From the NCBI GenBank assembly GCA_018241325.1, contig JAFEEB010000066.1, positions 1 through 49,366 on the forward strand: a stretch of DNA of 49,366 bases. The letters are read 5' to 3'. The DNA comes from Pseudomonadota bacterium (GTDB taxonomy: Bacteria > Pseudomonadota > Gammaproteobacteria > Burkholderiales > Burkholderiaceae_C). The translations under genes and the position numbers were made by a program. Positions 3,135 through 24,817 of this stretch are shown piece after piece. How positions within the stretch are numbered: position 1 is the first letter of the stretch; every line of letters starts with the position of its first letter. Below the pieces are notes generated by a model. That model did not search any database. It was not told the origin of the DNA and saw only the letters and a program-made list of their open reading frames with translations.

Positions 3135-5810
3135 TCAGACAGCTCGCGCCGTCAATTCGGCCGGTACCGTGGCCAATCCCGATTTGCCCGATTTCTTGCT
3201 GGAGCCCGCCGCCTTGGACGCACGGGCGGGTTTGGCGGCAGGTCGGGCCTCGTCCACGCGTTTGCGGATGTGGGCCAGCGCTTCTTCCACCTGGTCGATC
3301 AGGATCAGGCACAGGTCGCCCGCGTGCAGTTGTTCGAGCGCGCGGTCGATGGCGATGAATTCGCCGTGGATTTCGTCCACCTGGCGGGCGCGCGTGGCGC
3401 CCTCCAGGCCTTGGCGCAGCAGGGCCAGGACCTCGCCATCGGCGCGGCCGCGCTGGCAGGCGTCCTGGTAGAGGATGACCGAGTCGAAGGCCGTGCCCAG
3501 GATGCGCGTCTGGTCGCGGATGTCCTGGTCGCGCCGGTCGCCCGCGCCGCTGATGACCACCGAGCGCCGCTTGGAGGGCATGTTTTCGACCCCGGCCACC
3601 AGGGCGGCAATGGCGTCGGGGTTGTGGCCGTAGTCGGCAATCACGGTGGCGCCGCGGTAGTCGAACACGTTGAAGCGGCCGGGCACGCCCATCTGGTCGC
3701 TGATGAAGCTGGCCAGGCCTTTTTGAACCACGTCCCAAGGTACGCCCACGGCCCAGGCCGCGCCGACCGAGGCCATGACGTTCTCGACCTGAAAGCCGAT
3801 CTGGCCCTTGTGGGTGATGGGCACGCGCGCCAACGGCAGGCGCTTCTCAAATGCGCCCTCGGCGCACACGATGTCGCCGCCTTCGACGAACACCACGCGC
3901 TTGCCCTGGGCGCGATGCGTGGCCATCACCGGGTGCATGCCGTCCTGCGCGAAGAACGTGACGTGACCGGGGCAGTGCGGCGCCATGGTCACCACGGCAG
4001 GGTCGACGGCATTGAGCACGGCCGTGCCCGTGGGCGCCACGTTGAGCACGATCACGCGCTTGAGCACCTTCAGGTCCTCCAGCGTGGTGATGTAGTTCAG
4101 GCCCAGGTGGTCGCCCGAGCCGACGTTGGTGACCACCGCGACGTCGCATTGGTCGAAGCCCAGGCCCTCGCGCAGCAGGCCGCCGCGGGCGGTCTCGAGC
4201 ACGGCGGCGTCCACGTCGGGGTGCGCCAGCACGTTGCGCGCGCTGCGCGGGCCCGAGCAGTCGCCCGAATCGATCTGGCGGCCGTTGACATACACGCCAT
4301 CGGTGTTGGTCATGCCCACGCGCAGCCCCTGGGTGCGCAGCAGGTGTGCGGCCAGGCGCACGGTGGTGGTCTTGCCGTTGGTGCCGGTGACGGCGATGAC
4401 CGGAATGCGGCCGTTGCCGCCTTCGGGGTACATGTGGTCGATCACGGCGCCGCCCACGTCGCGGCCAGTGCCGAACGAGGGGTGGATGTGCATGCGCAGG
4501 CCGGGCGCGGCGTTGACCTCGACGATGCCGCCGCTTTGCGCCTCCAGTGGCTTGCCGACGGTTTCGCACACCACGTCCACGCCGCAGATGTCCAGACCCA
4601 CCATTTGTGCGGCCTCGACCGCGCGCGCGGCCACCTCGGGGTGCACGCTGTCGGTCACGTCGGTGGCCGAACCGCCTGTGGACAGGTTGGCGTTGTTGCG
4701 CAGCACCACGCGCTGGCCCTTGGCGGGCACCGAGTCGGCCGTGAGGTCTTGCGCGGCCAGGCGTGCCTCGGCGATGGCGTCAAAGCGGATTTTGGTGAGC
4801 GAGGTGCCGTGGCCTTCGCCGCGGCGCGGGTCAAGGTTGACCTCGGCCACCAGCTGGCGCACCGTGTGCTCGCCGTCGCCAATCACCTGCGGCGGATCGC
4901 GCCGCGCGGCGGCCACCAGGCGATTGCCAACCACCAGCAGGCGAAAGTCGTGGCCGGGCAGAAATTTCTCGACCATCACCGGGCCGTATTCGGCGGCGGC
5001 GCGGTAGCCGCGCTCAAAGCCTTCGCGGTCGATGATCCCGACCGTGACGCCCTTGCCCTGGTTGCCGTCCTGCGGCTTGACGACGACAGGCAGGCCGATG
5101 TCTTGCGCGGCTTTCCAGGCATCGTCCAGGTCGCCCACCGGGCGGCCGCGCGGCACCGGCACGCCGGCCGAGTGCAGCAGCATCTTCGTGAGGTCCTTGT
5201 CCTGGGCAATGGCCTCGGCGATGGCGCTGGTGGAGTCTTCCTCGGCGGCCTGGATGCGCCGCTGGCGGCTGCCCCAGCCGAACTGCACCAGGCTGCCGCG
5301 GGTCAGCCGGCGGATGGGGATGCCGCGAGCGACGGCGGCCAGGGCAATGGCGCCGGTGGAAGGGCCCAGGCGCTCGTCCTCATCGAGCTCGCGCAATTCG
5401 GCCAGGGCGGCGGCGCTGTCGAACGAGCCCCCTTCGGCAGCGGCGCGGCACAGCTCCTGGGCCTTGACGAGGGCCAGGCGGCCGACGGCTTCCTCGGTGT
5501 ACTGCACGGCCACCTGATAGGTGCCGGGCACCTCGGTGGGCGTGGTGCGGCTGAAGGTGACCGGGCAGCCGGCCTGCGCCTGCAGGGCCAGGGCGCTCAG
5601 TTGCAGCGCGTGTGCCATGGACACGGGCGCGTCGGGGTGCTCGGCATGCAGCAGTCCGACAGCTGGAAACAACTCGCGCAAGTGCGTTTCAAACGCGCGG
5701 GAGGTGCGCAGGTCGCGCTCGGATTCGTCGCAGGTGACGACGGCCTCGATGGCCGTCTGGCGGCTCCAGAGGTTGGGACCGCGAAGTGCGCGAATGCGGG
5801 TGATGTCCAT
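3135..5810 (-). CDS. cphA: Cyanophycin synthetase CphA (canonical)
   Basis: An 891-residue enzyme that builds cyanophycin (multi-L-arginyl-poly-L-aspartate) using two ATP-dependent active sites. The N-terminal domain starts MDITRIRALRGPNLWSRQT, the usual CphA beginning. An ATP-grasp domain (about 200-470) contains VVVKPQDGNQGKG, and the C-terminal Mur-ligase-like domain has an intact P-loop GTNGKTTT at 476-483 and NVGSGDHLG near 562-570. It is the distal gene of a minus-strand pair, 62 bp after the second synthetase, so probably one transcript. The native length (cyanobacterial enzymes are about 870-900) and intact motifs point to activity. No cyanophycinase or isoaspartyl dipeptidase is seen in the window. 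Confidence 0.95.
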   Translation of the reverse strand: MDITRIRALRGPNLWSRQTAIEAVVTCDESERDLRTSRAFETHLRELFPAVGLLHAEHPDAPVSMAHALQLSALALQAQAGCPVTFSRTTPTEVPGTYQVAVQYTEEAVGRLALVKAQELCRAAAEGGSFDSAAALAELRELDEDERLGPSTGAIALAAVARGIPIRRLTRGSLVQFGWGSRQRRIQAAEEDSTSAIAEAIAQDKDLTKMLLHSAGVPVPRGRPVGDLDDAWKAAQDIGLPVVVKPQDGNQGKGVTVGIIDREGFERGYRAAAEYGPVMVEKFLPGHDFRLLVVGNRLVAAARRDPPQVIGDGEHTVRQLVAEVNLDPRRGEGHGTSLTKIRFDAIAEARLAAQDLTADSVPAKGQRVVLRNNANLSTGGSATDVTDSVHPEVAARAVEAAQMVGLDICGVDVVCETVGKPLEAQSGGIVEVNAAPGLRMHIHPSFGTGRDVGGAVIDHMYPEGGNGRIPVIAVTGTNGKTTTVRLAAHLLRTQGLRVGMTNTDGVYVNGRQIDSGDCSGPRSARNVLAHPDVDAAVLETARGGLLREGLGFDQCDVAVVTNVGSGDHLGLNYITTLEDLKVLKRVIVLNVAPTGTAVLNAVDPAVVTMAPHCPGHVTFFAQDGMHPVMATHRAQGKRVVFVEGGDIVCAEGAFEKRLPLARVPITHKGQIGFQVENVMASVGAAWAVGVPWDVVQKGLASFISDQMGVPGRFNVFDYRGATVIADYGHNPDAIAALVAGVENMPSKRRSVVISGAGDRRDQDIRDQTRILGTAFDSVILYQDACQRGRADGEVLALLRQGLEGATRARQVDEIHGEFIAIDRALEQLHAGDLCLILIDQVEEALAHIRKRVDEARPAAKPARASKAAGSSKKSGKSGLATVPAELTARAV

Positions 5811-5824
5811 GGGAGGGATCCTGT

Positions 5825-5840
5825 TCGGAAGATGTTCCGA
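5825..5840 (-). other. Small inverted repeat in the cphA leader
   Basis: TCGGAA-GATG-TTCCGA is a perfect 6-bp inverted repeat in the 62-bp gap between the two synthetase genes, 15 bp upstream of the cphA start. It may be an RNA hairpin at the cphA leader or a protein site. Nothing further can be said from the sequence. Confidence 0.4.
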
Positions 5841-5872
5841 GCCTGAAGACTACAAACGAACGAGCATGCCGT

Positions 5873-8176
5873 TCAGTGCACCGCCGGGGTGTCACGCGGC
5901 TCATCAAAGTGCAACAAACCGGCACGAATGAGGTCGGGACCGACGCCGGCGGCCCAGGCGGCGGCCACGGCGGCCAGCACCTGCGGACGCACATCGTGCG
6001 GGCCGTCGGCGGTCAGGGCCGACAGCACCTGGGGCGACAGCTGGGTCAGCGCCAGCTCGTTCGCGCCCTCGATCAGCAGGACCTCGGTGCCGCGCGCCAG
6101 CACGGCGCGGCCCTGCGCGGCGCGGTGTGCGGCCAGGGCGGCGTTGTCGGGATTGCAGGACACCAGGAGGACTTCGCCGTCGCAGTAGTCGCCCAGCGCC
6201 AGCACCTCGGGGTCGTCGGCATTGAGCACCGCTGCACCATCGGGCAGCACCACATCGATCTGGGTGCGCAGGATGCCGGGCATCTGCTCGGCCTCGGTGA
6301 CGTACAAGTCGCTCAAGCCCTGCGGGCCGGGCATGCCCAGCACCACGCCGATCTGGCAGCGGTCATAGGGCAAACCCTCGGTCAGGATGTGGCGCGGCGA
6401 GGTCTCGAGCACGGCGGCCTGCACCGTGCGGTTGATCAGCATGCTCTGGCCCGCCTCGAAGCCGATGGAGCCGTGGGGCGAGAGCTGGCGGCGGCCCAGG
6501 AACAGGCCGTCGCGGCAGGCCAGCGCGGTTTGCCAGCCGTGCAGCTGGAACACGGTGGCCACCAGGCGGGCGGCCAGCGAGCTCTGGCCGTCGTTGATCA
6601 GGCCGACGATGGGAATCCGTCCGCTGTTGCCGGGCGGAAACAGGTGCTCGACGATGGCTTCGCCCACCGGCTGCGCGCGGCCGACGGCGGGCTTGAGGTG
6701 CATCAGCAGGCCGGGGCCGGCATTGACCTCGACAATGGCACCGCCCTGGGGCGCCAGCGGCTGGCCGATGTCTTCGACCACCAGGTCGATGCCGGCGATG
6801 TCCAGTCCCACCACGCGGGCGGCCAGGGTGACCTGCTCGGCCACGTCGGGATGGACCTGCGTGGTCACGTCGATGGACATGTTGCCGGTGCGCTGCACCA
6901 CGGCCGAGGCGCCCACGGGCAGCACGCTGTCCGTGGTCAGGCCCTGGCGCCCCAGCAGCAACAGCAGCACGGGGTCGTCGTGGCGCAGGGTTTCCAGCGG
7001 CAGGTGTTCTTCTTCGCCGCGGCGCGGGTCGGTGTTGATGTGCGTGTTGATCAGCGCACCGATCGAGGAGCGGCCGTCGCCCTTGACCTGGATGATCTCG
7101 CCGCGCATGGCGGCCACGACCTTGTTGCCCACCACCAGCAGGCGGTGCTCCTGGCCGGGAATGCAGCGCTCGACCAGTACCTCGGAGCCTTCGGCCTCGG
7201 CGGCGGCAAAGGCGTGCATGACTTCCTCGCGCGTGCCCAGATTGAGCGACACGCCGCGGGCGTGGTTGCCATCGGTGGGCTTGACCACCACGGGCAGGCC
7301 AATGTCCCCGGCGGCGTCCCAGGCGTCTTCGGCCGATTCGACCACGCGGCCTTCGGGCACGGGCACACCGGCGGCGGCGATCAACTGCTTGGTCAGGTCC
7401 TTGTCGCGCGAGATGCCCTCGGCGATGGCGCTGGTGCGGTCGGTCTCGGCGGTCCAGATGCGGCGCTGGGCGCTGCCCTGGCCCAGTTGCACCAAGTTGC
7501 CCTCGTTCAGGCGGATGAAGGGAATGCCGCGTTCGGCGGCGGCATCGACGATGCTGGCGGTGCTGGGGCCCAGGCAGCGGCGATCGACCATCTCGGTCAG
7601 TCGCGCCACGGTGGCGGCCACGTCGAATGGGCGGTCGTTGATGGCGGCCATGACCAGATCGCGCGCGCTGGTGATGGCTTGCATGCCCACGGCTTTGTCG
7701 CGCGTGCGGATGACGACCTTGTAGACCCCGGGTTCCCCCGTCATGCGGGCCTTGCCGAAGCCGGTTTTCATGCCGGCCTGGGTTTGCAGCTCGAGCGCCA
7801 CGTGTTCCAGGATGTGGCCGGGCCAGGTGCCGTCGCGCAGGCGCATCAGAAAACCGCCGCGCCGGCCCACGCTGCAACGGTGCTCGATCAGGCCGGGCAG
7901 CCAGGCCGTCAGGCGATCGTAGAAGCCGGGCAGGGTGTTGGACGGGTAGTCTTCCAGGGCGCCGATGTCGACGATGGCCTCGATCACCGGGCGATACGTC
8001 CAGATGCCGGGGCCGCCCAGGTAGGTCATGCGCCGGATCACGATGTCCGCGAACGGCGTGCGCGGCGACGCCTGCGCGGCGCCGGCTTCGGCGGTGTCCG
8101 CCTGGACGTGAAGGGTGCGGGGATACAATCCGCCCCCGCTGAACGAGCCAAGCTCGTCTGGGTCGATTCGCCTCAT
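5873..8176 (-). CDS. Second cyanophycin synthetase-like protein (CphA') with degenerate Mur-ligase P-loop
   Basis: About 767 residues if started at ATG 8176 (MRRIDPDELG). The start is unsure: similarity to CphA-type proteins begins only near IRRMTYLGGPGIWTYRPV, about 50 residues in, and no good Shine-Dalgarno is seen. The N domain and ATP-grasp domain are intact (VVVKPTDGNHARGVSLNLG, IVEVNAGPGLLMHL). In the Mur-ligase-like domain the GTNGKTT loop of CphA is replaced by GLINDGQSS (about 525-533), and NVGSGDHLG by a non-matching GMPGPQGLSD. The protein is also shorter than CphA. Tandem cphA' and cphA are known in betaproteobacteria such as Ralstonia; cyanobacterial CphA2, which polymerises beta-Asp-Arg with only the ATP-grasp site, is a plausible functional analogue (inference). 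Confidence 0.88.
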   Translation of the reverse strand: MRRIDPDELGSFSGGGLYPRTLHVQADTAEAGAAQASPRTPFADIVIRRMTYLGGPGIWTYRPVIEAIVDIGALEDYPSNTLPGFYDRLTAWLPGLIEHRCSVGRRGGFLMRLRDGTWPGHILEHVALELQTQAGMKTGFGKARMTGEPGVYKVVIRTRDKAVGMQAITSARDLVMAAINDRPFDVAATVARLTEMVDRRCLGPSTASIVDAAAERGIPFIRLNEGNLVQLGQGSAQRRIWTAETDRTSAIAEGISRDKDLTKQLIAAAGVPVPEGRVVESAEDAWDAAGDIGLPVVVKPTDGNHARGVSLNLGTREEVMHAFAAAEAEGSEVLVERCIPGQEHRLLVVGNKVVAAMRGEIIQVKGDGRSSIGALINTHINTDPRRGEEEHLPLETLRHDDPVLLLLLGRQGLTTDSVLPVGASAVVQRTGNMSIDVTTQVHPDVAEQVTLAARVVGLDIAGIDLVVEDIGQPLAPQGGAIVEVNAGPGLLMHLKPAVGRAQPVGEAIVEHLFPPGNSGRIPIVGLINDGQSSLAARLVATVFQLHGWQTALACRDGLFLGRRQLSPHGSIGFEAGQSMLINRTVQAAVLETSPRHILTEGLPYDRCQIGVVLGMPGPQGLSDLYVTEAEQMPGILRTQIDVVLPDGAAVLNADDPEVLALGDYCDGEVLLVSCNPDNAALAAHRAAQGRAVLARGTEVLLIEGANELALTQLSPQVLSALTADGPHDVRPQVLAAVAAAWAAGVGPDLIRAGLLHFDEPRDTPAVH
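8124..8129 (+). promoter_or_regulatory. Candidate -10 box for the ABC exporter operon
   Basis: TACAAT within GGATACAATCCG, about 115 bp upstream of the exporter start, matches a common Burkholderiales -10. No convincing -35 is visible. It lies inside the presumed N-terminal codons of the divergent cphA', so either the promoter overlaps that gene or the true cphA' start is further in. Confidence 0.4.
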
Positions 8177-8243
8177 GTTGGAGTGCGCTCGTTTTCGTTG
8201 AACCGATTTATCCAAGAAGCCGGTGGCTGCCGCAGGCGGGCCG

Positions 8244-10559
8244 ATGCTTCTTGTTTCCATGCCGCCACAGTCCACCTCCGCGTCCCGCCAGGTTCCCGAC
8301 CCGGTCTCTGCCCCTGAATCCCTCGAGGTGCCCTTGCGACCCTCTGAGAACGTTCGAGGGACGCTGGACGTTGACCTGACCGCGCAACTGCATTTCAGCG
8401 CGGGGCGCCTTGTTCTTACGAATCAACGGCTTGTCGCGCGGTATCCAGATGAAACCACCTGGCGGTCCTGGGACCTGGCGCCCGGCATGGCGCTGGTGCA
8501 CCAGGACTACGCCGGCGTCGGCACGCTCGAATTGCGCGATGGCGCGGGCATCCTGGGGTGCTGGCGTTACACCTTGGGGCACAACCCGGCGGCCCTGAAA
8601 TTGCAGGCCGAGTTCGATCGACTGCTGGTCGAACGCGCCACTGGGGGAAACCCGGCCGAGTCGGTGCTCCCGGAAGACGACGAAGCGCAAGAGGCCGATG
8701 CCGACGACGACGAGGAGCCGCAGGAACAGCCCCCATCGACCTGGACCCTGCTGCGTCTGTGGCGCTTTGCCCACCCCTATCGCTGGCGCCTGCTGGCCGG
8801 CTTTTTGCTGACCCTGGCCGGCACGGCGGCCACCCTGGTGCCGCCGTATCTGACCATCCCGCTGATGGACAACGTGCTGATCCCGTTTCAGGATGGCAAG
8901 CAAATCGATCCGACCTACGTGGCGCTGCTGCTGTCGGGCCTGCTGGGCTCGGCCCTGCTGGCCTGGGCGCTGGGCTGGGCCAAGACCTACATTTTGGCGC
9001 TGGTGTCCGAGCGCATCGGCGCCGACTTGCGCACCACCACCTATGAGCACCTGCTCAAGCTGTCGCTGGAATATTTTGGCGGACGGCGCACGGGCGACCT
9101 GATGGCGCGCATCGGCTCGGAGACCGACCGCATCAACGTGTTCCTGTCGCTGCACCTGCTGGACTTCGCCACCGACGTGCTGATGATCGTCATGACCTCG
9201 GCGATCCTGTTTTCCATCGACGCCAAGCTGGCCCTGGTCACCCTGGTGCCGCTGCCCTTCATCGCCTGGATGATCCATCAGGTGCGCGACCGGCTGCGCA
9301 CCGGCTTCGAGAAAATCGACCGCGTGTGGGCCGAAGTCACCAACGTGCTGTCCGACACCATTCCCGGCATTCGCGTGGTCAAGGCGTTTGCCCAGGAGGA
9401 GCGCGAGGCGGGCCGCTTTCGCGACGCCAACCGCCACAACCTGGCGGTCAACGACCGGCTCAACCGCCTGTGGTCGCTGTTCTCGCCCACGGTCACCTTG
9501 CTGACCGAGATCGGCCTGCTGGTGGTCTGGGCCTTCGGCATCTGGCTGGTGGCGCATCACCAGATCACGGTGGGTGTGCTGACCGCGTTCCTGGCCTACA
9601 TCGGGCGCTTCTATTCGAGGCTGGATTCGATGAGCCGCATCGTTTCGGTGACGCAAAAGGCCGCTTCGGGCACCAAGCGCATTTTCGAGATCCTGGACCA
9701 CGTCTCCAGCGTGCCCGAGGCCGCCAACCCGGTGCACCTGCCGCAGGTGCAAGGCCGCATCGCGCTGCAGGACGTGAGTTTTCGCTATGGCAACCGCAGC
9801 ACCATCCGCCAGTTGAACCTGGACATCGAACCGGGCGAGATGATCGGGCTGGTGGGCCACAGCGGCTCCGGCAAGAGCACGCTGGTCAACCTGATGTGCC
9901 GCTTCTACGACGTGGCCGAGGGCCGCATCACCATCGACGACGTGGACATTCGCCAGGTGGCGCTGGCCGACTATCGCCGTCACATCGGCCTGGTGCTGCA
10001 AGAGCCTTTCCTGTTCTTCGGCACCATCGCCGAGAACATCGCCTACGGCAAGCCCGAGGCCACGCGCAGCGAAATCGTCGCCGCCGCGCGCGCGGCCCAC
10101 GCGCATGAATTCATCCTGCGCCTGCCGCAGGGCTACGACTCGCTGGTGGGCGAGCGCGGCCAGGGCCTGTCGGGCGGCGAGCGCCAGCGCATCAGCATCG
10201 CTCGGGCGCTGCTGATCGACCCGCGCATCCTGATCCTGGACGAGGCCACGGCCTCGGTCGACACCGAGACCGAGCGCGAGATTCAGAAGGCGCTGGACAA
10301 CCTGGTGCGCGGGCGCACCACCATTGCCATCGCGCACCGCCTGTCCACGCTGCGCAAGGCCAACCGCCTGGTGGTGATGGACAAGGGCCGCAAGGTGGAG
10401 GAGGGCACGCACGAGCAACTCATCGCCCAGCGTGGTGCCTACTGGCGCCTGTACGAGGCCCAAGCGCGTCAGGAGAAGGCCGAGCGCGAGCGCATGCTGG
10501 AGATCGAGGAAAAGGACCTGTCGCCACTGGCGCGGGCCGAAAAGGAGCGTCAACCATGA
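8244..10559 (+). CDS. Cyanophycin-locus ABC exporter (fused TMD-NBD) with extra N-terminal domain
   Basis: About 771 residues. The start is uncertain (GTG 8223, ATG 8244 or ATG 8259). Residues 1-140 are a soluble extra domain containing LHFSAGRLVLTNQRLVARYP, which recalls bacterial PH-like domains (inference). A very acidic linker follows (DDEAQEADADDDEEPQEQ). An exporter-type membrane domain of about six helices and an ATPase domain come next: Walker A GHSGSGKST near 537, signature LSGGERQR near 641, Walker B ILILDEATAS and the switch His in IAIAHRLST. It is a half-transporter, so probably a homodimer. Its ATGA overlap with the DUF1854 gene and its position opposite two cyanophycin synthetases match the family I know as the cyanophycin metabolism-associated ABC transporter. 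The cargo is unknown. Confidence 0.88.
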   Translation: MLLVSMPPQSTSASRQVPDPVSAPESLEVPLRPSENVRGTLDVDLTAQLHFSAGRLVLTNQRLVARYPDETTWRSWDLAPGMALVHQDYAGVGTLELRDGAGILGCWRYTLGHNPAALKLQAEFDRLLVERATGGNPAESVLPEDDEAQEADADDDEEPQEQPPSTWTLLRLWRFAHPYRWRLLAGFLLTLAGTAATLVPPYLTIPLMDNVLIPFQDGKQIDPTYVALLLSGLLGSALLAWALGWAKTYILALVSERIGADLRTTTYEHLLKLSLEYFGGRRTGDLMARIGSETDRINVFLSLHLLDFATDVLMIVMTSAILFSIDAKLALVTLVPLPFIAWMIHQVRDRLRTGFEKIDRVWAEVTNVLSDTIPGIRVVKAFAQEEREAGRFRDANRHNLAVNDRLNRLWSLFSPTVTLLTEIGLLVVWAFGIWLVAHHQITVGVLTAFLAYIGRFYSRLDSMSRIVSVTQKAASGTKRIFEILDHVSSVPEAANPVHLPQVQGRIALQDVSFRYGNRSTIRQLNLDIEPGEMIGLVGHSGSGKSTLVNLMCRFYDVAEGRITIDDVDIRQVALADYRRHIGLVLQEPFLFFGTIAENIAYGKPEATRSEIVAAARAAHAHEFILRLPQGYDSLVGERGQGLSGGERQRISIARALLIDPRILILDEATASVDTETEREIQKALDNLVRGRTTIAIAHRLSTLRKANRLVVMDKGRKVEEGTHEQLIAQRGAYWRLYEAQARQEKAERERMLEIEEKDLSPLARAEKERQP

Positions 10560-11026
10560 ACGCCAACGCACCGGCGCTGCGTCGGGACGCCTTCAACCGC
10601 CTGGTTCTGACGGATGCCGACGGCCGCGAGCACGTGGGGGTGGTGGTGGTGCGCGCTTTCCCGATCGGCGCGCCCGAGGAGGGCATCAGCCTGCTGGATG
10701 CGGACGGCCACGAGCGGGCCTGGATCGAGCGCCTGGCGGAGTGCCCCGCGCCGCAGCGCGAGCTGATCATGACGGCGCTGCAGCAGCGCGAGTTCATGCC
10801 GGTGCTCAGGCGCCTGAAGTCGGTCAGCAGCTTTGCCACGCCCAGCACCTGGGAGGTGGAGACGGACCGCGGGCCGACGAGCTTCGTGCTCAAGGGCGAG
10901 GAAGACATCCGCCGCCTGAGCGCCGAGCTGCTGATCGTCAACGACGCGCATGGCGTGCAATACCTGATCCGCGACCTCGGCGCCATGGACCGTGCCAGCC
11001 GCAAGCTGCTCGACCGGTTCCTGTAG
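10556..11026 (+). CDS. DUF1854 family protein associated with cyanophycin metabolism
   Basis: A 156-residue soluble protein starting at ATG 10556 in an ATGA overlap with the exporter stop, so translationally coupled. No signal peptide or membrane helix is visible. The sequence (FNRLVLTDADGREHVGV, then RAFPIGAPEEGISLLDADGHE and SFATPSTWEVETDRGPTSF) matches DUF1854, which I recall being found almost always with this exporter and cyanophycin synthetases. Function is unknown. The strict coupling suggests that it acts with the transporter, for example as a regulatory or cargo-recognition subunit (inference). Confidence 0.85.
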   Translation: MNANAPALRRDAFNRLVLTDADGREHVGVVVVRAFPIGAPEEGISLLDADGHERAWIERLAECPAPQRELIMTALQQREFMPVLRRLKSVSSFATPSTWEVETDRGPTSFVLKGEEDIRRLSAELLIVNDAHGVQYLIRDLGAMDRASRKLLDRFL

Positions 11027-14380: not shown

Positions 14381-16726
14381 TCACAAATCCAGCACCAGGT
14401 GCCCGCTGCGTGCCCGCGAGCAGCAACTCATCATGCGGTCGCCCGGGGCGCGCTCAGCGGGGCTGAGCACGCTGTCGCGGTGCTCGATGTCACCGCTGGC
14501 CACGGGCACTTCGCAGCTGCCGCACAGGCCTTCCTCGCAGTCGCATTGCACGTCCACGTTGTGGGCGTGCAGCACCTCCAGCAGCGTGCGGTCGGCCGGC
14601 ACGTGCAGGGTCAGGCCGGCCGCGCGCAGCTCCACCTCGAAGGCGCGCTCGTGCGCCGGGTCCAGCTTGGGTGCGTTGTTCTCGAAGTGCTCCACGTGCA
14701 GCGCATCGGCCGGCCAGCCGGCCTGCGCCACGGCTTGCTGCAGGGCGTCCAGCAGGCGCTGCGGGCCGCAGGCGTAGATGAGGCTGTCGGCCCGCGGCTG
14801 GGCCAGCAGGGCGGCAAAGTCGCAGCGCCCGCCTTCATCGCTCAGGTGCAGTTGCAGGCGCTCGCCGTGCAGGGCCTGCAATTCATCGATGTAGGCCGCG
14901 CGGGTGCGTGAGGCGGCGCTGTAGTGCAGCGCGTAGTCGCGCCCGGTGGCGCGGGCGTGCTGCGCCATGGCCATGACGGGGGTGATGCCGATGCCGCCGC
15001 CGATCAGGATCAGGCGCCGGCGGCTGTCCTCGTCCATGTGAAAGTGGTTGCGCGGCCCGCGCACGCGCAAGGGGGCGCCGGCCGTGGCCCAGCGGTGGAT
15101 CCAGGCCGAGCCACCGCGGCTGGCCGCGTCGTGCTGCACGGCCACTTCCCATTCATGCGCGTTGTCCAAGTCGCCACACAGCGAATACTGGCGCGACAGG
15201 CCCGTGTCGCCGCATTCGATGTCGATGTGCGCGCCGGGCGACCAGCGGGGCAGGGCGCTTCCGTCGGCCGCGGCCAGGCGCAGGCGCACGATGTGGGGGC
15301 CGCTGGCCAGGGTGTCGGCCGCCAGCACGCGCAGCTTGCGCACCATGGCGCTGGCCGTGGGGCCGCCCAGATGCACGGCCTGCGCCCAGTGGCGCACGGC
15401 GGGATCGCGCCGCTCGGGGTTGTGCGCCGGGTCCCAGCGCACGCGCAGGTTCTGCGGGCCGCGAAACGCCAGGTTGTGCACGTACTCGTATTCCTGCGGC
15501 ACCAGCTGCATGTGCGGCAGGCGGCGCGAGAGCTCGCCGATCATGATCTGCATTTCCATGCGCGCGATGTTCTTGCCCAGGCACTGGTGCACGCCGAAGC
15601 CGAAGGACAGCTGGTCGATCACGTTGCTGCGGCGGATGTCGAACAGGTCGGGGTCGCTGAACTGGCGCGCATCGTGGTTGGCCGAGTGCACCACCAGCAG
15701 CAGGCGTGCGCCCGCCGGGATGCTGACGCCCTCGATCACCACGTCGCGCGTGGTGCGGCGGCGCCACGAGGCGATCGGGCCGTCGTGGCGCAGGCACTCT
15801 TCGATGGCGGGCGAAATGAGCGAAGGGTCTTCGCAGATCTCGTCCCACACCGTGCGGTTTTGCAAGAGCAGGCGGATGGCGTTGGCGCTGGCAAACGAGG
15901 TCGATTCGTGCGCGGCCACGATGATGGCCATCATCATGGAGTGCAGGTACGAGTCGGTGACCACGTCGGGGTGGTGCTTTTGCTGGCGGATGGAGTAGCG
16001 CATCCAGCCCGGGCCCTCGGGCGTGCGGCGCATTTTGTCCAGGATTTCGCCCGACAGCTGCCAGAACTTGCCCACGGTGTGCGCCACCTCGATGCGCTCT
16101 TCGGGCGTGGCGCGGCCGAAGGCGTTTTTGGTGTGCGCGATGGCGAACTGGTGCATCTTCTCGCGGTCTTCATCGTCGTCGATGCCCAGAAAGTGCAGGG
16201 CGACGGAAAACGGCACGTGCCAGGTCAGGCGCTTGAACAAATCGGCCTCGCCCGCGTCGATGAAGTTGTCGATGGCCTCGCTCACCAGGCGGCGCACCAT
16301 GGGTTCGTGCTGGCGCAGGTGCTCGGGCGTGAAGGGCGCCATCAGCGCGCGGCGGCGCGCCATGTGCATGGGCTCGTCCTCGTTGACCAGGGTGCGGTTG
16401 AGGGCGTAGCCGTAGGACTTGAGGATGGCCAGCGCCTCCTCGGTCGGCGGCTCGGTCGATTCGAGCGCGATCGAGGGGCTGTAGGTGTGCGGATCGCGAA
16501 ACACGTCCTTGATGGCCTCGTAGCGCGTGAGCACCCAATAGCCCAGCTTGGGGCTGAAGAACACGGGCTGCTCTTCGCGCGCCCAGCGCAGCAGCTCCGA
16601 CGGGTTGGCCATGTAGGCATCGGTGTAGGGATCAAAGGCGGCCGCTTGGTTGGCGAATGGACAGCCCGTGGGTGCGGGCGAGCGGGCCACCGGGCAGGCG
16701 CTGGCAGGACTTGGATCGGGCTTCAT
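14381..16726 (-). CDS. Self-sufficient cytochrome P450 fused to a phthalate-type reductase (CYP116B-like)
   Basis: 781 residues. The P450 domain (about 1-430) has the haem loop FGFGVHQCLGKN with ligand Cys382, the ExxR-type helix K region and a helix-I motif AAHEST. The reductase part (about 460-690) has RQYSLCG for flavin and GGGIGITPVMAM and CGPQRLLDAL for NAD(P)H. The C-terminal plant-type [2Fe-2S] domain has CEEGLCGSC plus a distal Cys near the end (MMSCCS). This is the P450-PFOR layout of CYP116B/P450 RhF, which needs no partner proteins. It lies 10 bp after hmgA on the same strand, so they are probably one operon. A role in aromatic compound oxidation feeding homogentisate cleavage is inference; the substrate is unknown. 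Confidence 0.93.
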   Translation of the reverse strand: MKPDPSPASACPVARSPAPTGCPFANQAAAFDPYTDAYMANPSELLRWAREEQPVFFSPKLGYWVLTRYEAIKDVFRDPHTYSPSIALESTEPPTEEALAILKSYGYALNRTLVNEDEPMHMARRRALMAPFTPEHLRQHEPMVRRLVSEAIDNFIDAGEADLFKRLTWHVPFSVALHFLGIDDDEDREKMHQFAIAHTKNAFGRATPEERIEVAHTVGKFWQLSGEILDKMRRTPEGPGWMRYSIRQQKHHPDVVTDSYLHSMMMAIIVAAHESTSFASANAIRLLLQNRTVWDEICEDPSLISPAIEECLRHDGPIASWRRRTTRDVVIEGVSIPAGARLLLVVHSANHDARQFSDPDLFDIRRSNVIDQLSFGFGVHQCLGKNIARMEMQIMIGELSRRLPHMQLVPQEYEYVHNLAFRGPQNLRVRWDPAHNPERRDPAVRHWAQAVHLGGPTASAMVRKLRVLAADTLASGPHIVRLRLAAADGSALPRWSPGAHIDIECGDTGLSRQYSLCGDLDNAHEWEVAVQHDAASRGGSAWIHRWATAGAPLRVRGPRNHFHMDEDSRRRLILIGGGIGITPVMAMAQHARATGRDYALHYSAASRTRAAYIDELQALHGERLQLHLSDEGGRCDFAALLAQPRADSLIYACGPQRLLDALQQAVAQAGWPADALHVEHFENNAPKLDPAHERAFEVELRAAGLTLHVPADRTLLEVLHAHNVDVQCDCEEGLCGSCEVPVASGDIEHRDSVLSPAERAPGDRMMSCCSRARSGHLVLDL

Positions 16727-19638: not shown

Positions 19639-20421
19639 ATGAACCCGATCTCAAGCACCCGATACGGCGACTGGTTGATCAAGGTGCCGGCCATCACGCT
19701 GTCGTTCTGGATCGTCAAGATCCTGTGCACCACGGTCGGCGAGACCGGGGCCGACTATCTGGCCGTGGGCGCCGGCCTGGGCCAGGGCCTGACGCGCGCC
19801 ATGATGGCCAGCCTGCTGGCCGTGGCATTGGTCTGGCAGCTGCGCACGCAGCGCTACACCCCCTGGATCTATTGGCTCACGGTGGTGCTGGTCAGCGTGG
19901 TGGGCACGCAGATCACCGATGTGCTCACCGACAAGCTGGGTGTCAGCCTGTACGTCAGCACCTCGGTTTTTGCGCTTTTGCTGGTGGTCATTTTTGCCAC
20001 CTGGCATCGGGTGGAGCACACGCTGTCGATCCACGACATCGTGACGCGCCGGCGCGAGCTGTTTTACTGGGCCGCCATCCTGTGCACCTTTGCGCTGGGC
20101 ACCGCCGCGGGCGATCTGGCCACCGAAGCCTTGCACCTGGGCTTCACCCGCGGCGCGCTGGTCTTCGGAGCACTGATCGCCCTGACCTGTCTCGCGTGGC
20201 GCCTGGGGGGCAACGCCGTGCTGACTTTCTGGATCGGCTACATCCTCACGCGCCCCTTCGGGGCGGCACTCGGTGATTTGCTGACACAGGCCAACGAATA
20301 CGGCGGCCTGGGCATGGGGGCGATGTGGACCAGCGCGCTGTTCCTGTCGGTCATCGTGGCGCTGGTCGCTGCGGAGCAGTTCTTTGTGGACGAACGCCGT
20401 GCCATGCCCATGGCGGATTGA
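19639..20421 (+). CDS. DUF347/COG4705 membrane protein, first copy
   Basis: 260 residues, about 7-8 membrane helices, starting at ATG 19639 with a strong ribosome binding site. It carries the DUF347 repeat signature: KVPAITLSFWIVKILCTTVG at the N-terminus, and later copies of the same theme (YWAAILCTFALGTAAGD, FWIGYILTRPFGAALGD). The recurring TT.GET / G.A.GD motifs within helices suggest an internally repeated channel or transporter. Family function is not established. It is the first of a pair that flanks a lipoprotein gene, upstream of an efflux and two-component operon. Confidence 0.85.
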   Translation: MNPISSTRYGDWLIKVPAITLSFWIVKILCTTVGETGADYLAVGAGLGQGLTRAMMASLLAVALVWQLRTQRYTPWIYWLTVVLVSVVGTQITDVLTDKLGVSLYVSTSVFALLLVVIFATWHRVEHTLSIHDIVTRRRELFYWAAILCTFALGTAAGDLATEALHLGFTRGALVFGALIALTCLAWRLGGNAVLTFWIGYILTRPFGAALGDLLTQANEYGGLGMGAMWTSALFLSVIVALVAAEQFFVDERRAMPMAD

Positions 20422-20964: not shown

Positions 20965-21735
20965 ATGAACCCGAGCGCTGAATACGCACTGGTCAAAGTC
21001 CCTGAAGTCACGCTCGGCTTCTGGCTTATCAAGATTGCCGCGACCACGTTGGGTGAAACCGGCGGCGATGCCGTTTCGATGTCCATGAACCTGGACTATT
21101 CGGTCGCCACCGGCATCTTCGCCGTCGCTTTTCTGGTTGCCGTCAACGCGCAAATCCGCGCCAAGGCCCTCTATCCCTTCCGGTACTGGGCCACCATCAT
21201 CGCCACCACCACGATCGGCACCACGCTGGCCGATTTTGCGGATCGTTCGCTGGGTATCGGCTACACGGGTGGCTCGGCCCTGTTGCTGGCGCTGGTGCTG
21301 CTTTCGCTCTTCCTGTGGTATCGCAGCATGGGCACGGTGGCCGTGGCCAGCGTGCACTCGCCCAAGGCCGCGGCCTTCTACTGGGTGACGATCATGTTTT
21401 CGCAAACCCTGGGCACGGCGCTGGGCGACTGGATGGCTGATACGGCCGGCCTTGGTTTCTCGGGCACCGCCATGGTGTTCGCCGGGTTGTTGGCCTTGGT
21501 GGCGGCCGCCTATTTCTGGAGCCGCCTATCGCGCACCCTGCTGTTCTGGATGGCGTTCATCCTGACCTGCCCGCTGGGCGTCGCGTTGGGCGACTTTTTG
21601 GACAGGCCAGTCACGGTGGGCGGCTTGGCGTTGAGCCGCTATTGGGCGTCCACCGTGCTGCTGGTCTTCATCCTAGCGTTTATTCTTGTCGATCAGGTCA
21701 TCGGACATCTCGACCGCGCATTCAACCCGGATTGA
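20965..21735 (+). CDS. DUF347/COG4705 membrane protein, second copy
   Basis: 256 residues, about 7-8 membrane helices. It starts KVPEVTLGFWLIKIAATTLG, parallel to the first copy, and repeats the motif internally (YWATIIATTTIGTTLAD, YWVTIMFSQTLGTALGDWM, FWMAFILTCPLGVALGD). It is clearly homologous to the 19639 protein but divergent, so this is an old duplication. It ends 11 bp before the broken response regulator. The Thr- and Gly-rich repeated helices are the family hallmark; substrate unknown. Confidence 0.85.
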   Translation: MNPSAEYALVKVPEVTLGFWLIKIAATTLGETGGDAVSMSMNLDYSVATGIFAVAFLVAVNAQIRAKALYPFRYWATIIATTTIGTTLADFADRSLGIGYTGGSALLLALVLLSLFLWYRSMGTVAVASVHSPKAAAFYWVTIMFSQTLGTALGDWMADTAGLGFSGTAMVFAGLLALVAAAYFWSRLSRTLLFWMAFILTCPLGVALGDFLDRPVTVGGLALSRYWASTVLLVFILAFILVDQVIGHLDRAFNPD

Positions 21736-22116: not shown

Positions 22117-22197
22117 CCGCCACCCGTTGTCGCCGACTGCATGGCGGCATTGGCCGCGCTGCTGCAAAGCTCCGACAGCCTGTCCGGCAAAGCGTGA
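22117..22197 (+). pseudogene. 3' remnant of a second lipoprotein gene
   Basis: In the frame starting at 22117 the translation PPPVVADCMAALAALLQSSD, then SLSGKA and a stop, aligns with the C-terminus of the lipoprotein at 20506 ([20 protein letters not shown], then LQGKA and a stop). The 5' part is missing and is replaced by the truncated regulator. A deletion joining a regulator gene to a lipoprotein gene explains both fragments. Confidence 0.75.
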
Positions 22198-22294
22198 CTC
22201 CGTGCGGGCGGCGAAGGCAATCTTGCGTCAGTCAATCCTTTGGCATGATGGTCCAGCCGCCGTTGTTTCTCTTGCATCTTGTTGTCTGTCGGGT

Positions 22295-23731
22295 ATGACT
22301 TCAAATTCGTGGGTACGACATATTGACCATGCATCCGTCACCGCGGGTTGCTGGACACTGGCGCTGGCGCTGGCCTGCCTGTTGTCCGCCTGTGCCAGCT
22401 ACACGCCGCAGCCCTTGGTCGTGCAGGCGTCGCTGCACACCGCGTTGCCGGCCCTTCCACCGCTGTCCGCGCCGGGTGTGGCGCCGCCCTTCGTGGCGCG
22501 GCATCCATTCGATGCGCGCGACGGGCTGGACGCCACCGAAGTGGCTACGCTGGCGGTGCTGTTGAGCCCCGATGTCAAATCCGCCCGGGCCGCGCAAGGG
22601 GTGGCGCAGGCGCAGGCTTTTGCCGCGGGCCTGCTGCCTGACCCGCAGCTCTCACTGACGCGCGACTTCCCGTCCAGCAACGCGCCCGGCCTTACCAGTG
22701 CCTTCAACCTCGGCCTGGCTTATGACTTCAATCAACTCATCACCCATGGCGTGACCCAGCAGGCTTCGGCGAGCGATACCGAGAAGTCCCATCTCGACCT
22801 GCTGTGGCAAGAGTGGCAGGTGGTCGCCCAAAGCCAGGTGCTGATGAACCGCATCGGCCAGCAGGAGCAGTTGGCGCAGGTGCTTGAGCACGAACAGGCG
22901 TTCTATGCCGACCTGATGCCGCGAACCCGTCGCGCGGTAGCCGAGGGCAACCTGACGATCGAAGCGCTGAGCCCGTATTTGACGACTGCGGCCGACAACG
23001 CGCGCCAGTTGAACGAGGCTCGCCGCGCTGCCCAGGACAACCGTGGCCAGCTCAACGCCCTGCTGGGCCTGATGCCCGATGTGCGGCTCGATCTGGTGTT
23101 CGACCGCACTCTGCCGCAGCTGAACGACGCCGCGGTGCGCGCCAGCCTGATCAGCGTCGCCGAGCGTCGCCCCGACCTGCGGGCCCTGCGCGCCGGCTAT
23201 GCGGCGCAGGAGGCGCGCACGCACCGCGCGGTGCTGGCGCAGTTTCCCGCGCTCAACATCGGCATCACCCGCGTGCGCGATACCGCAGGGCTCTACACCA
23301 GCGGCTTTGCGCTGGGCTTCACGTTACCGCTGTTCAACCGCAACCGGGGCAACATTGCTGTGGAAGTGGCCACCCGGACGCAGTTGCGCCAGGAGTACGA
23401 AAAGCGCCTGAACGCAGCCCATGGCGACGCCTTGCGCGCGCTGCGCAGCGACGCGCAACTGATGGAGCAGATCCGCCTGGCGCAGGGTGAGGTGGCCCAG
23501 TTGCAGCCATTGGCCGACCGGGGTGAGCAGGCCCTGCAAGCCGGCGCCATGGATGCCCTGCGTTATGCCAATCTGCGCGCCGGCCTGTTGGCCAAGAAGC
23601 TGGAACTGCTGAACCTGGAGGCGAGCGTGCGTGAGCAGCGCATTGCCTTGCGCACGCTGACCGGGATCGATGTTTCCAATGGCCTGCACGCGCCATCGGA
23701 TGCGACGCCGCAACAGAACAAACTGCCTTGA
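22295..23731 (+). CDS. TolC-family outer membrane efflux lipoprotein
   Basis: 478 residues from ATG 22295; the ribosome binding site is poor. The signal peptide ends in LLSAC, so Cys33 is the likely lipidation site. The mature protein has the long coiled-coil helices of outer membrane factors (AQGVAQAQAFAAGLLPDPQL, later ARTHRAVLAQFPALNIGI, and ALQAGAMDALRYANLRAGLL). It forms the outer membrane duct of the tripartite pump with the next two genes, with a 12-bp gap to the adaptor. Confidence 0.9.
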   Translation: MTSNSWVRHIDHASVTAGCWTLALALACLLSACASYTPQPLVVQASLHTALPALPPLSAPGVAPPFVARHPFDARDGLDATEVATLAVLLSPDVKSARAAQGVAQAQAFAAGLLPDPQLSLTRDFPSSNAPGLTSAFNLGLAYDFNQLITHGVTQQASASDTEKSHLDLLWQEWQVVAQSQVLMNRIGQQEQLAQVLEHEQAFYADLMPRTRRAVAEGNLTIEALSPYLTTAADNARQLNEARRAAQDNRGQLNALLGLMPDVRLDLVFDRTLPQLNDAAVRASLISVAERRPDLRALRAGYAAQEARTHRAVLAQFPALNIGITRVRDTAGLYTSGFALGFTLPLFNRNRGNIAVEVATRTQLRQEYEKRLNAAHGDALRALRSDAQLMEQIRLAQGEVAQLQPLADRGEQALQAGAMDALRYANLRAGLLAKKLELLNLEASVREQRIALRTLTGIDVSNGLHAPSDATPQQNKLP

Positions 23732-23743
23732 GGAGAACGTTCG

Positions 23744-24817
23744 ATGAACCCGTTGAAATTGCGGATGGGCGCTCGGCGCTTGGCCACGGCGCTGCTGGCG
23801 TTGCTGCCATGGCTGTGCTTGCCACCGTTGGCCCACGGTGCGGAAAGCCCGGCCGAGCCCGGTGCTCTGGTGAGCACCGTGGCGCTCAAACGGGGCGAGT
23901 TGCCGCTGACCCTGACCGGCTTTGGCGTCGTCGCCCCCGAGGCGGGACAAAGCCAGAACGTCAGCGTGCAGCGTGCCGGCCGCGTCGAACGCTTGCGGGT
24001 TGCGGTGGGCGCGCAGGTGCAGCGAGGCCAGCCGCTGATGGAGCTTGCCGTTGACCCGGCCGCAGCCCAGGCGTTTGCCCAGGCGCGCAACGCGCAGCAG
24101 TACACCGAGGGCGAGGTGGCGCGCATCGAAGCGCTGGTGGCGCAGCAGTTGGCCACGCGCTCGCAACTGGCGCAGGCACGCCAGGCCGCGGCCGACGCCC
24201 GCGAAGCGGTGCGCGTGCAAGAGCGCCTGGGCGGTGCGGCCGAACGCATCACGGTGACGGCGCCGATCAGCGGCTTGCTGGTGGCGCTGCCGGTGGCCCA
24301 GGGCGACCGCATTCCGGCTGGCGCTGCCGTGGCGCAACTGGCCAACACCGATTCCTTGCGCGTCGCGCTGGGCATCGAGCCGGGTGATGTGCGCCACCTG
24401 CGCAGCGGCATGGCGGTGCGCCTGGCTTCGGTGTTCGACGAAACCCGTTCTGTGACGGGCCAGGTCGTACTGGTGCAGCGGGCCATCAACCCGAAAAGCC
24501 AGTTGGTCGATGCGGTGGTGCGATTCCAGCCAACCGCCGACTCGGGCCTGCTGCCGGGCTTGCGCGTGCGCGGCGACATCCAGTTCGCCAAGGCCGAAGG
24601 CTGGCTCATTCCGCGCTCGGCCCTGGTCAGGAGCGGCGATGGTTTTGCCGCATTCCAGGTGGCCGACGGCAAAGCCGCGCGGGTGGCCGTGCAGGTGATC
24701 ACGGAGCAGGGCGATCAGGCCGTGGTCAAGGCCCCGTTCGATGCCCAGCGGCGCCTGGTGACGACGGGCGCCTACCAGTTGACCGATGGCATGGCCGTGC
24801 GCGAGGCCAAGTCATGA
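23744..24817 (+). CDS. RND efflux periplasmic adaptor (membrane fusion protein)
   Basis: 357 residues with an N-terminal signal sequence ending near AHGAES. Barrel-sandwich halves are seen at GRVERLRVAVGAQVQRGQPL and ITVTAPISGLLVALPVAQGD, separated by a short coiled-coil hairpin (about 95-150). Beta-barrel and membrane-proximal domains follow, ending with GAYQLTDGMAVR. It links the RND pump to the outer membrane factor. No metal-binding His-rich stretch is seen. It overlaps the pump gene by ATGA. Confidence 0.93.
   Translation: MNPLKLRMGARRLATALLALLPWLCLPPLAHGAESPAEPGALVSTVALKRGELPLTLTGFGVVAPEAGQSQNVSVQRAGRVERLRVAVGAQVQRGQPLMELAVDPAAAQAFAQARNAQQYTEGEVARIEALVAQQLATRSQLAQARQAAADAREAVRVQERLGGAAERITVTAPISGLLVALPVAQGDRIPAGAAVAQLANTDSLRVALGIEPGDVRHLRSGMAVRLASVFDETRSVTGQVVLVQRAINPKSQLVDAVVRFQPTADSGLLPGLRVRGDIQFAKAEGWLIPRSALVRSGDGFAAFQVADGKAARVAVQVITEQGDQAVVKAPFDAQRRLVTTGAYQLTDGMAVREAKS

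Follow-up and report, generated by a model that had tools for sequence, protein, structure and literature searches.

Why should a pair of cyanophycin synthetase genes stand head-to-head with an ABC exporter? In the window, by which we mean the whole stretch of 49,366 nucleotides that was analysed, the four genes have the order, strands and coordinates given in the preliminary description: cphA (3135–5810) and cphA' (5873–8176) on the minus strand face, on the plus strand, the genes for the exporter (8244–10559 from its ATG, with a possible earlier start at the GTG of 8223) and a DUF1854 protein (10556–11026). The gap between the divergent starts (8177–8243, no strand assigned) measures 67 bp, within the <100 bp claimed for it, or 82 bp if the next ATG is used, and the ATGA coupling that had been described is present at 10556–10559, where the DUF1854 gene overlaps the exporter stop. 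A promoter scan of positions 8100–8400 found no sigma-70-type consensus, and neither Rfam nor tRNA scanning gave a hit anywhere in the window. We propose, at what we regard as an even chance, that the locus encodes a synthetase divided over two genes and that what it makes, whether intact or as pieces cut by CphA', is exported.

The co-occurrence survey suggested in the preliminary description was carried out with profile searches of 120 sampled genomes of the host order. The exporter and DUF1854 were found in the same 41 genomes, about one-third of the sample, and all 41 also have CphA' and a CphA match; no genome among the 120 has the exporter without CphA, or CphA' without the exporter. Because exporter and DUF1854 occupy one and the same set of genomes, always with CphA, the association of the three is not due to chance. 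Three other genomes with CphA over cut-off (G041, G086 and G113) have neither exporter nor CphA', and all three carry a cyanophycinase and IaaA. Four further genomes that lack the exporter (G010, G016, G027 and G053) have partial or distant CphA matches below cut-off, the longest of which, in G016 (380 bits), is without the N-domain site and does not group with CphA'. There was no support for a mobile composite transposon as the usual form of the module, as no flanking gene family occurs in more than 7 genomes in a comparison that covered a few kb on each side and would miss dissimilar insertion sequences.

The two synthetases show reciprocal losses of their active sites. CphA (891 aa) belongs to cyanophycin synthetase 1, scoring 948 bits against TIGR02068 (cut-off 850) and possessing the G-domain ATP residues, the aspartate clamp and the M-domain site. 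On the minus strand it retains the Mur-ligase P-loop GTNGKTT (4365–4385; Lys in 38/38 aligned module sequences), the aspartate loop NANLSTGG (4656–4694) and, completing the G-domain aspartate pocket, IVEVNAAPGLRMH (4488–4526), which bears the arginine equivalent to R458 of TeCphA1, described as holding aspartate in the available part of PMC9427784. Its N-domain region (5592–5654, minus strand), by comparison, has lost the Cx19HxxEH site, and the corresponding loop is deleted. The same pattern holds across the module genomes, in which the aspartate clamp and the M site are each complete in 38/38 aligned CphA sequences and the N site in 0/38 (three of the 41 were omitted: G030, at a contig end; G051, on another contig; and G011, split into two overlapping frames). 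Among 14 other CphA sequences, clamp and M site are present in 14/14 and the N site in 10/14. The window CphA also has Ala at E215 and Gln at H267, the latter shared by 36/38 module sequences; since the H267A substitution inactivates the G domain of SuCphA1 (PMC9262961), CphA is possibly an elongase of a non-standard kind. Gln at this position was not kept as evidence that the G domain is dead, given that it also occurs in 4/14 of the other sequences.

CphA' has the opposite character. It is 767 aa long from its ATG, or 33 aa longer if it starts at the GTG at 8275; the version used for profile scans was two residues longer than the ATG reading, and it scored 935 bits against PRK14016 (cut-off 877) and only 661 (660.6) bits against TIGR02068 (cut-off 850). 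Along the minus strand the N-domain endo-cyanophycinase motif Cx19HxxEH, as defined in PMC9262961, is intact (CSVGRRGGFLMRLRDGTWPGHILEH; 7802–7876), as are the ATP-grasp residues, including a G-domain P-loop with the His equivalent to H267 (7253–7279). In HRLLVVGNKVVAAMRG (7100–7147) R309 is kept and R323 is replaced by Gly, the STGG aspartate loop is deleted at QRTGNMSIDV (6866–6895), R458 is replaced by Leu in IVEVNAGPGLLMH (6698–6736), and the Mur P-loop is degenerate (GRIPIVGLINDGQSS; 6578–6622); a Pfam scan found no Mur-ligase domain. These losses, with the TIGR02068 score, place CphA' outside cyanophycin synthetase 1. The preliminary description spoke of two tandem synthetases: both genes are there, and the second is no ordinary synthetase, so that domain content and active-site residues rule out a reading as two ordinary tandem enzymes.

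This division is uniform among the module genomes, for which a second, cut copy of CphA' in G115 was omitted from the counts. In the alignment, the N-site residues C59, H79, E82 and H83 and the ATP residues are present in 41/41, as at each position are H57, F67, R70 and E87, which assigns CphA' a predicted endo-cyanophycinase N domain; the clamp pair R323 and R458 is present in 0/41, the STGG loop is deleted in 41/41, and the M site is complete in only 4/41. Because those four CphA' with remaining M-site residues already lack the aspartate pocket, loss of the pocket looks older than loss of the M site. In a tree, one branch has CphA' on one side and CphA on the other, with support values of 100 and 99, and the distances of CphA, CphA' and the exporter are correlated (r 0.75–0.81).

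From these residue patterns, a division of N- and M-site labour between CphA' and CphA is highly probable. CphA would act as the elongase, its G domain adding aspartate and its M domain arginine, and for want of an N-domain site it would be expected to need primers. CphA' would provide the missing activity by cutting cyanophycin into short primers, which would bring priming and breakdown under a separate gene. Such cooperation has a precedent in PMC9262961, where a primer-dependent CphA1 becomes primer-independent once an N domain is added in trans as a separate protein, and E82Q abolishes the primer-independent activity of SuCphA1. Because the ATP-grasp site of CphA' is kept and looks live and its aspartate pocket is removed, it probably joins a substrate that is not aspartate, or else serves just to hold the chain.

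We then consider how the polymer might be used. Cyanophycinase over cut-off was found in 4/41 module genomes, IaaA in 9/41, IadA in 0/41 and PF04952 in 6/41; IaaA and IadA are both absent in 32/41, and all the degradation enzymes sought are absent in 30/41, the window genome among them. TIGR02069 matches below cut-off occur in G112 (94.8 bits), in G075 (30.6 bits) and at a second place in G068; if these are counted, 6/41 genomes have any match and 29/41 lack everything. Fisher values calculated for these data are not relied on, since they count related genomes as if they were independent. The window genome (96% complete) yielded no PF03575 (Peptidase_S51) match at E 0.01, no TIGR02069 match at E 1e-5 and no isoaspartyl dipeptidase (IaaA or IadA) at E 1e-20, and with neither a cyanophycinase nor an isoaspartyl dipeptidase found there the locus does not correspond to a classical cyanophycin storage locus. 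This scarcity parallels the survey of PMC10206079, where Table 2 covers 903 beta-proteobacterial genomes with CphA1 and records a cyanophycinase for 2.8% of them, compared with 95.6–100% in Alpha, Gamma, Cyanobacteria, Actinomycetota, Firmicutes and Bacteroidota and 70% in others; the figure of ~3% is called unanticipated there, and unknown isozymes are proposed. A like point is made in the available text of PMC5178258 for Sideroxydans, also with two neighbouring cphA.

The exporter belongs to a type IV (MsbA-like) family, NF052233 (1355 bits, curated cut-off 880), and is not an MsbA lipid A exporter (TIGR02203 470 (470.5) bits, cut-off 602). The DUF1854 protein matches PF08909 (167 bits) and belongs to NF052234 (228 (227.7) bits, curated cut-off 150), so the cyanophycin-association names that the preliminary description gave for both families were right. 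The extra N-terminal domain that had been described (about 8307–8660, plus strand; no Pfam match of its own) and the acidic linker (8667–8729, plus strand) are both real, and the linker is a local oddity: what recurs ahead of the membrane part, by a pattern search in 34 of the 42 exporters that make up the CphA-linked set together with that of the window, is a CxxC...CxxC zinc-ribbon-like stretch. When 26 N-terminal domains were scanned, three matched Mago-bind (best E 0.041), others matched unrelated families, and single members matched two families that we take to be PH-like, Myosin_TH1 (E 0.004) and hSac2 (E 0.019), a weak lead to a PH-like fold. Homology of this domain to DUF1854 found no support (hhalign probability 1.2). 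Fixed charged transmembrane residues were also considered as a sign of an Asp-Arg substrate and were dropped, since the 13 specific to CphA-linked exporters (n=41, including G298 and without G051, which is cut by a contig end) hardly exceed the 11 gained by the unlinked ones, and the cavity thus gives no such sign.

The preliminary description called the exporter dedicated, and named frequent occurrence of the pair without any cyanophycin synthetase as what would count against its reading. That is what was found outside the order: Gemmatimonadota, a PVC bacterium and Halobacteriovorax carry the same exporter type and DUF1854 as a unit of two genes, and no CphA was seen in the flanks of 37 such loci, flanks that are often cut by contig ends. 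A wider search behind 23 of 38 loci (Gemmatirosa plus the 37), representing 22 genomes and one plasmid record, found CphA over cut-off in only 2/22 genomes (completeness not stated), on other contigs, and a partial Mur-ligase-like match in a third, G409. No conserved partner gene was recognised next to the CphA-less pairs, and a tblastn search of the window DUF1854 against 72,556 plasmid records matched Gemmatirosa alone. The pair is not intrinsically a cyanophycin device, and because it occurs without CphA in other phyla, the ancestral exporter substrate was probably something other than cyanophycin.

Within the order, CphA linkage in 41/41 and missing degradation enzymes in 30/41 fit export or another extracytoplasmic fate. 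The export put forward in the preliminary description is thereby partly supported, with Asp-Arg material as its putative substrate, and we hold export of an Asp-Arg product tentatively, at slightly below an even chance. The exporter would move the product or its CphA'-cut fragments out of the cytoplasm, with DUF1854 as its putative cytosolic partner; a candidate fragment is the beta-Asp-Arg tetramer, the piece that a cyanobacterial enzyme preferentially releases. Export would then stand in for the cyanophycinase present at most other CphA loci.

The same observations could be accommodated by an ordinary intracellular reserve, in which CphA' makes the primers and also does the work of the missing depolymerase, cutting the chain with its N domain when expression shifts, and the exporter and DUF1854 are merely co-regulated for another job, such as lipid or glycan transport. 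We consider this possible, though doubtful. The invariant N site (41/41) has endo-cyanophycinase activity in SuCphA1, and placing it on a separate gene permits the control by expression that, according to the Discussion of PMC9262961, a single enzyme cannot have; the exporter unit moreover has a life elsewhere without CphA. However, mere co-regulation does not predict strict linkage in 120 genomes, and N-domain cleavage is slow and leaves oligomers (PMC9262961); both IaaA and IadA are missing in 32/41 module genomes. Catabolic use of beta-Asp-Arg could still occur, since isoaspartyl dipeptidase is present in 9/41 genomes here and PMC10206079 gives 70.9% for beta-proteobacterial genomes with CphA1, and a depolymerase of a kind not recognised by these searches would bring the storage reading back.

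Other roles for CphA' were also weighed. CphA' resembles CphA2, to which we assign structure chains 7ta5 and 8fxh, in that both the M-domain P-loop and the C-terminal lobe have usually been lost. These features, given for CphA2 in the passages available from PMC9427784, would suit an enzyme that re-polymerises beta-Asp-Arg dipeptides while the exporter moves dipeptides or polymer. We nevertheless judge this improbable: CphA2, which recycles the dipeptides left by cyanophycin breakdown, does not have the N-domain motif (PMC9262961) found in 41/41 CphA', so that CphA' falls outside CphA2; 37/41 module genomes have no cyanophycinase over cut-off to make dipeptides; and R458, which according to the same passages of PMC9427784 contacts the alpha-carboxylate of whatever residue is being added, is gone from CphA', and a dipeptide acceptor still has that carboxylate. 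GshF, which adds glycine, also has no Arg at 458 and carries Met or Tyr there in that material, a point in favour of CphA' as a capping or tailoring ligase. Such a ligase would link (beta-Asp-Arg)n, through its activated C-terminal carboxylate, to an amine other than aspartate, and the product would be a peptide-like metabolite that is secreted. The conserved ATP-grasp residues, the uniform loss of the R323–R458 pair and STGG loop, the apparently early loss of the pocket and the exporter itself all favour such a ligase, which we still regard as unlikely: no acceptor is known, and the ATP site could be kept just for chain binding or oligomer structure. Slightly less likely again is the fuller scheme in which the split pair makes short (beta-Asp-Arg)n, CphA' trims it and adds a non-aspartate acceptor as a C-terminal cap, and the exporter and DUF1854, recruited from an older export family, secrete a product that is not mainly a store.

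Two sequence searches are compatible with Burkholderiales as the host order without proving it: an efflux gene matched Burkholderia (73% over 11% of the query), and homogentisate dioxygenase matched Azospirillum, Cupriavidus, Acidovorax and Paraburkholderia at 67–71%. Provided that the order is betaproteobacterial, as these matches suggest, the two-gene synthetase with export offers a concrete answer to the puzzle of betaproteobacterial CphA without cyanophycinase: cleavage would now be the task of a partner protein, and the place expected for a depolymerase would be taken by an exporter. If true, betaproteobacterial cyanophycin would shift from reserve to possible secreted product, two named families without known function would gain a pathway, and bioproduction would gain a two-protein synthetase with separately tunable priming; under capping and secretion, a secreted isopeptide would be found where a reserve polymer was assumed.

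Among known systems, the window CphA shares the three-domain architecture of cyanophycin synthetase 1 (SuCphA1, TeCphA1 and TmCphA1) and aligns with solved CphA1 over residues 3–849 of 890. Its closest functional parallel is TmCphA1, primer-dependent and also without the N site (PMC9262961); the window differs in carrying that site on a second protein, itself without an aspartate pocket. The exporter has the transmembrane and nucleotide-binding domains of MsbA-like type IV exporters (TM287/288, Sav1866, BmrA and MsbA), to which it adds the N-terminal domain, the linker and the DUF1854 partner. Already known are the family names (NF052233 and NF052234, cyanophycin metabolism-associated), which give association only, and to which one relative each from Gemmatirosa, the PVC bacterium and Halobacteriovorax, without CphA alongside, does not extend (625–663 bits against NF052233, below 880). 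Also in print since 2023 is the "Group 1" cluster of PMC10687191, which, in the passages available, has two cphA copies and an ABC transporter without cphB in activated-sludge taxa and is the same kind of cluster as the window module. Those passages propose flanking insertion sequences and report that the Accumulibacter synthetases (two neighbouring cphA) are expressed, the destination of the product not being measured there; "DUF" is absent from the main text, and the passages do not discuss how the active sites differ or how strict the linkage is. New here are the strict co-occurrence, the reciprocal site loss in the two synthetases, the scarcity of degradation enzymes and the exporter–DUF1854 pairs without CphA.

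The window sequence and the family matches bear out both the four genes and the order given in the preliminary description: cphA (3135-5810) and cphA′ (5873-8176) on the minus strand, then the ABC exporter (8244-10559; NF052233) and the DUF1854 gene (10556-11026; PF08909, NF052234) on the plus strand. The divergent starts lie 67 bp apart, within the spacing of less than 100 bp claimed there; the exporter and DUF1854 reading frames do overlap by ATGA, and NCBIfam does call both families 'cyanophycin metabolism-associated', as the preliminary description has it. At the place of the exporter's acidic linker (window 8667-8729), 34 of 42 CphA-linked exporters carry a CxxC...CxxC zinc-ribbon-like stretch. 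Elsewhere in the window, a single open frame on the minus strand (14381-16726) joins cytochrome P450 and 2Fe-2S ferredoxin domains and adjoins a homogentisate dioxygenase gene, and two adjacent DUF347-repeat proteins (19639-20421 and 20965-21735) sit upstream of a set encoding an outer-membrane efflux protein, HlyD and an AcrB-type protein (22127-27876).

The four genes occur together as a module. Among 120 genomes drawn evenly from the order Burkholderiales, this genome included, DUF1854 was present in 41 and the exporter in the identical 41; the synthetase model PRK14016 was matched over cut-off in 44, among them all 41 module genomes, each with a cphA′-type copy (the genomes counted are kin, so the numbers do not amount to independent trials). 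In 37 of the 41, cphA′ and the exporter pair lie next to each other in divergent orientation, no more than about 1.2 kb separating their open frames, and CphA is lost to contig ends in three genomes of this count (G005, G030, G051); two module genomes (G063, G111) are co-directional, and the module halves are separated by about 8 and 13 kb in G034 and G115. One CphA (L130, G011:C67:24000-42000) is broken by a frameshift or an assembly error into two frames that overlap, the first matching 1-466 and the second 461-866. Across 299 genomes of the phylum, DUF1854 occurred in 16, comprising 15 of this order and one of another class (G298), where the end of a contig carries it together with the exporter and a synthetase; the six of these 15 that were new to the survey, scanned for synthetases only, each gave two matches (6/6). 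Distances of CphA, CphA′ and exporter correlate (r 0.75-0.81, 36 genomes; reached by 0/300 permutations for both CphA-CphA′ and CphA′-exporter), as co-inheritance of the three would lead one to expect.

The two synthetases divide the catalytic sites between them. Residues were numbered by alignment to the reference enzymes SuCphA1 and TeCphA1, with roles taken from the available portions of PMC9262961 and PMC9427784, over 41 CphA′, 38 module CphA and, for comparison, 14 further CphA rows, of which eight came from genomes and six were plasmid controls. The zinc site of the N domain (C59, H79, E82, H83) is complete in 41/41 CphA′ and 0/38 CphA; H57, F67, R70, E87 and Y110 are each kept in 41/41 CphA′, and F67 and R70 fall within a deletion in 38/38 and 37/38 CphA, respectively. 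Conversely, the M site (P-loop Lys, D585, H586) is present in 38/38 CphA and 4/41 CphA′. Both proteins retain the G-domain ATP residues K220, K261, R309, D431 and E450 (38/38 and 41/41), while the aspartate pocket pair R323 and R458 occurs in 38/38 module CphA, 14/14 other CphA and 0/41 CphA′. In CphA′, Gly replaces R323 in 40 and Ser does so in one, position 458 is Leu in 38/41, and a deletion removes the STGG loop, whose Ser396 lies next to bound aspartate, from 41/41. This G-domain change is focused, since 52 of 72 fixed columns are kept at 90% or more. Four CphA′ with M-site residues (G028, G047, G091, G098) also lack the pocket, suggesting that its loss preceded that of the M site. In a quick tree, CphA and CphA′ were each set apart by a branch, with supports of 100 and 99. 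Mean identity within CphA′ is 59% (N), 66% (G), 45% (M core) and 36% (C-terminal part), compared with 56, 71, 69 and 67% within CphA; with N and G held while M drifts, CphA′ is not a copy decaying as a whole. As H267 is Gln in 36/38 module CphA and E215 is altered in both proteins, their G domains may be non-standard.

Other synthetase-like genes were also met. In two Gemmatimonadaceae (G407, G408; L156 7889-9181 and L157 2451-3731), a frame of about 430 residues follows a complete CphA, and its sole Pfam match, the CphA N-terminal domain PF18921, marks it as possibly a further stand-alone N domain adjoining a synthetase. A distant CphA-like protein with no exporter (G016; L169 4897-7221; 380 bits to PRK14016), lacking the N-site, aspartate clamp and M-site Lys, is perhaps another ligase of this kind. 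In three module-less CphA loci (L078, L079, L163; G041, G113 and Ruegeria), CphA has as neighbour another gene, which resembles a Mur ligase; the Ruegeria annotation reads 'Mur ligase family protein'.

Enzymes of polymer degradation are scarce in module genomes. Cyanophycinase (TIGR02069) exceeded cut-off in 4/41 (G021, G056, G068, G102) and in 3/3 genomes with CphA but no module; the isoaspartyl dipeptidase IaaA (PF01112) was found in 9/41 versus 3/3, IadA in 0/41, and PF04952, taken as an approximate stand-in for aspartoacylase-like dipeptide hydrolases, in 6/41. None of the four was found in 30/41, this genome among them, which also has no Peptidase_S51 match (12/14 control genomes have one). 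G056 carries a second CphA pair away from its module (L071, G056:C1:5334000-5350000), adjoined by one of its two cyanophycinase matches with IaaA beside, so both systems are possible in one genome. On plasmids, cphA has isoaspartyl peptidase and cyanophycinase beside it in Mesorhizobium, Rhizobium and Sphingobium, and cyanophycinase in Ruegeria; in Deinococcus and Chryseobacterium, the gene listings for 5 kb around cphA contained neither. The scarcity agrees with PMC10206079 and PMC5178258, as far as their available text goes; in PMC10206079, 2.8% of 903 beta-proteobacterial genomes with CphA1 have cyanophycinase, which is termed unanticipated there, and 70.9% have IadA or IaaA.

The preliminary description had regarded the exporter as dedicated to the cyanophycin locus; within the order it always occurs with a synthetase (41/41), but not elsewhere. 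A Gemmatirosa plasmid has exporter and DUF1854, with CphA absent from 12 kb on either side and from the rest of the plasmid. Its DUF1854, used as query against genome contigs, found 37 loci, mainly in Gemmatimonadota, the remainder being one PVC bacterium and two Halobacteriovorax; the exporter immediately precedes DUF1854 in 34, two others are cut by a contig end, and in one nothing scored. No CphA was found in flanks of the 37, often shortened by contig ends, and a search of 22 of the genomes that carry these loci gave 2 with a CphA over cut-off, on other contigs. The range of the export unit is thus wider than cyanophycin. Among 14 control genomes, that of Sulfolobus acidocaldarius also has a PF08909 match. 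Three CphA-less exporters fell short of the NF052233 cut-off of 880 bits, scoring 625-663, and their N-terminal domain aligns with the window exporter's at low identity (mean 18% between sets). The exporters linked to CphA have the look of a single branch that was recruited. Their transmembrane part averages 77% identity among themselves and 32% to unlinked exporters, compared with 81 and 60% for the nucleotide-binding domain. This conservation suggests one specific substrate; charged transmembrane positions, compared between linked and unlinked exporters, gave no pointer to which.

All activities proposed here are inferred from residues: CphA would elongate and should require primers, as does the reference enzyme TmCphA1, while CphA′ would bear the cutting site. 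The available sections of PMC9262961 report that an N domain added in trans makes TmCphA1 primer-independent, that a single enzyme cannot set the balance of synthesis and cleavage through expression, and that the cyanobacterial N domain preferentially releases (beta-Asp-Arg)4, in the segments tested. Two genes could set that balance by expression here, and the tetramer may be of manageable size for a type IV exporter. As no depolymerase could be recognised, the likeliest outlet is the exporter-DUF1854 unit. The literature searched, which covered few subscription papers and some sources only in part, yielded no mention of DUF1854 by name and no earlier description of the reciprocal site loss that we recognised. 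According to the accessible part of PMC9427784, GshF, which adds glycine, likewise has no Arg at 458, the feature it shares with the pocket-less ATP-grasp of CphA′. Activated-sludge bacteria described in the portion available of PMC10687191 have two cphA copies and an ABC transporter without cphB, and their cluster resembles the present module in pairing cphA genes with an ABC transporter while lacking cphB.
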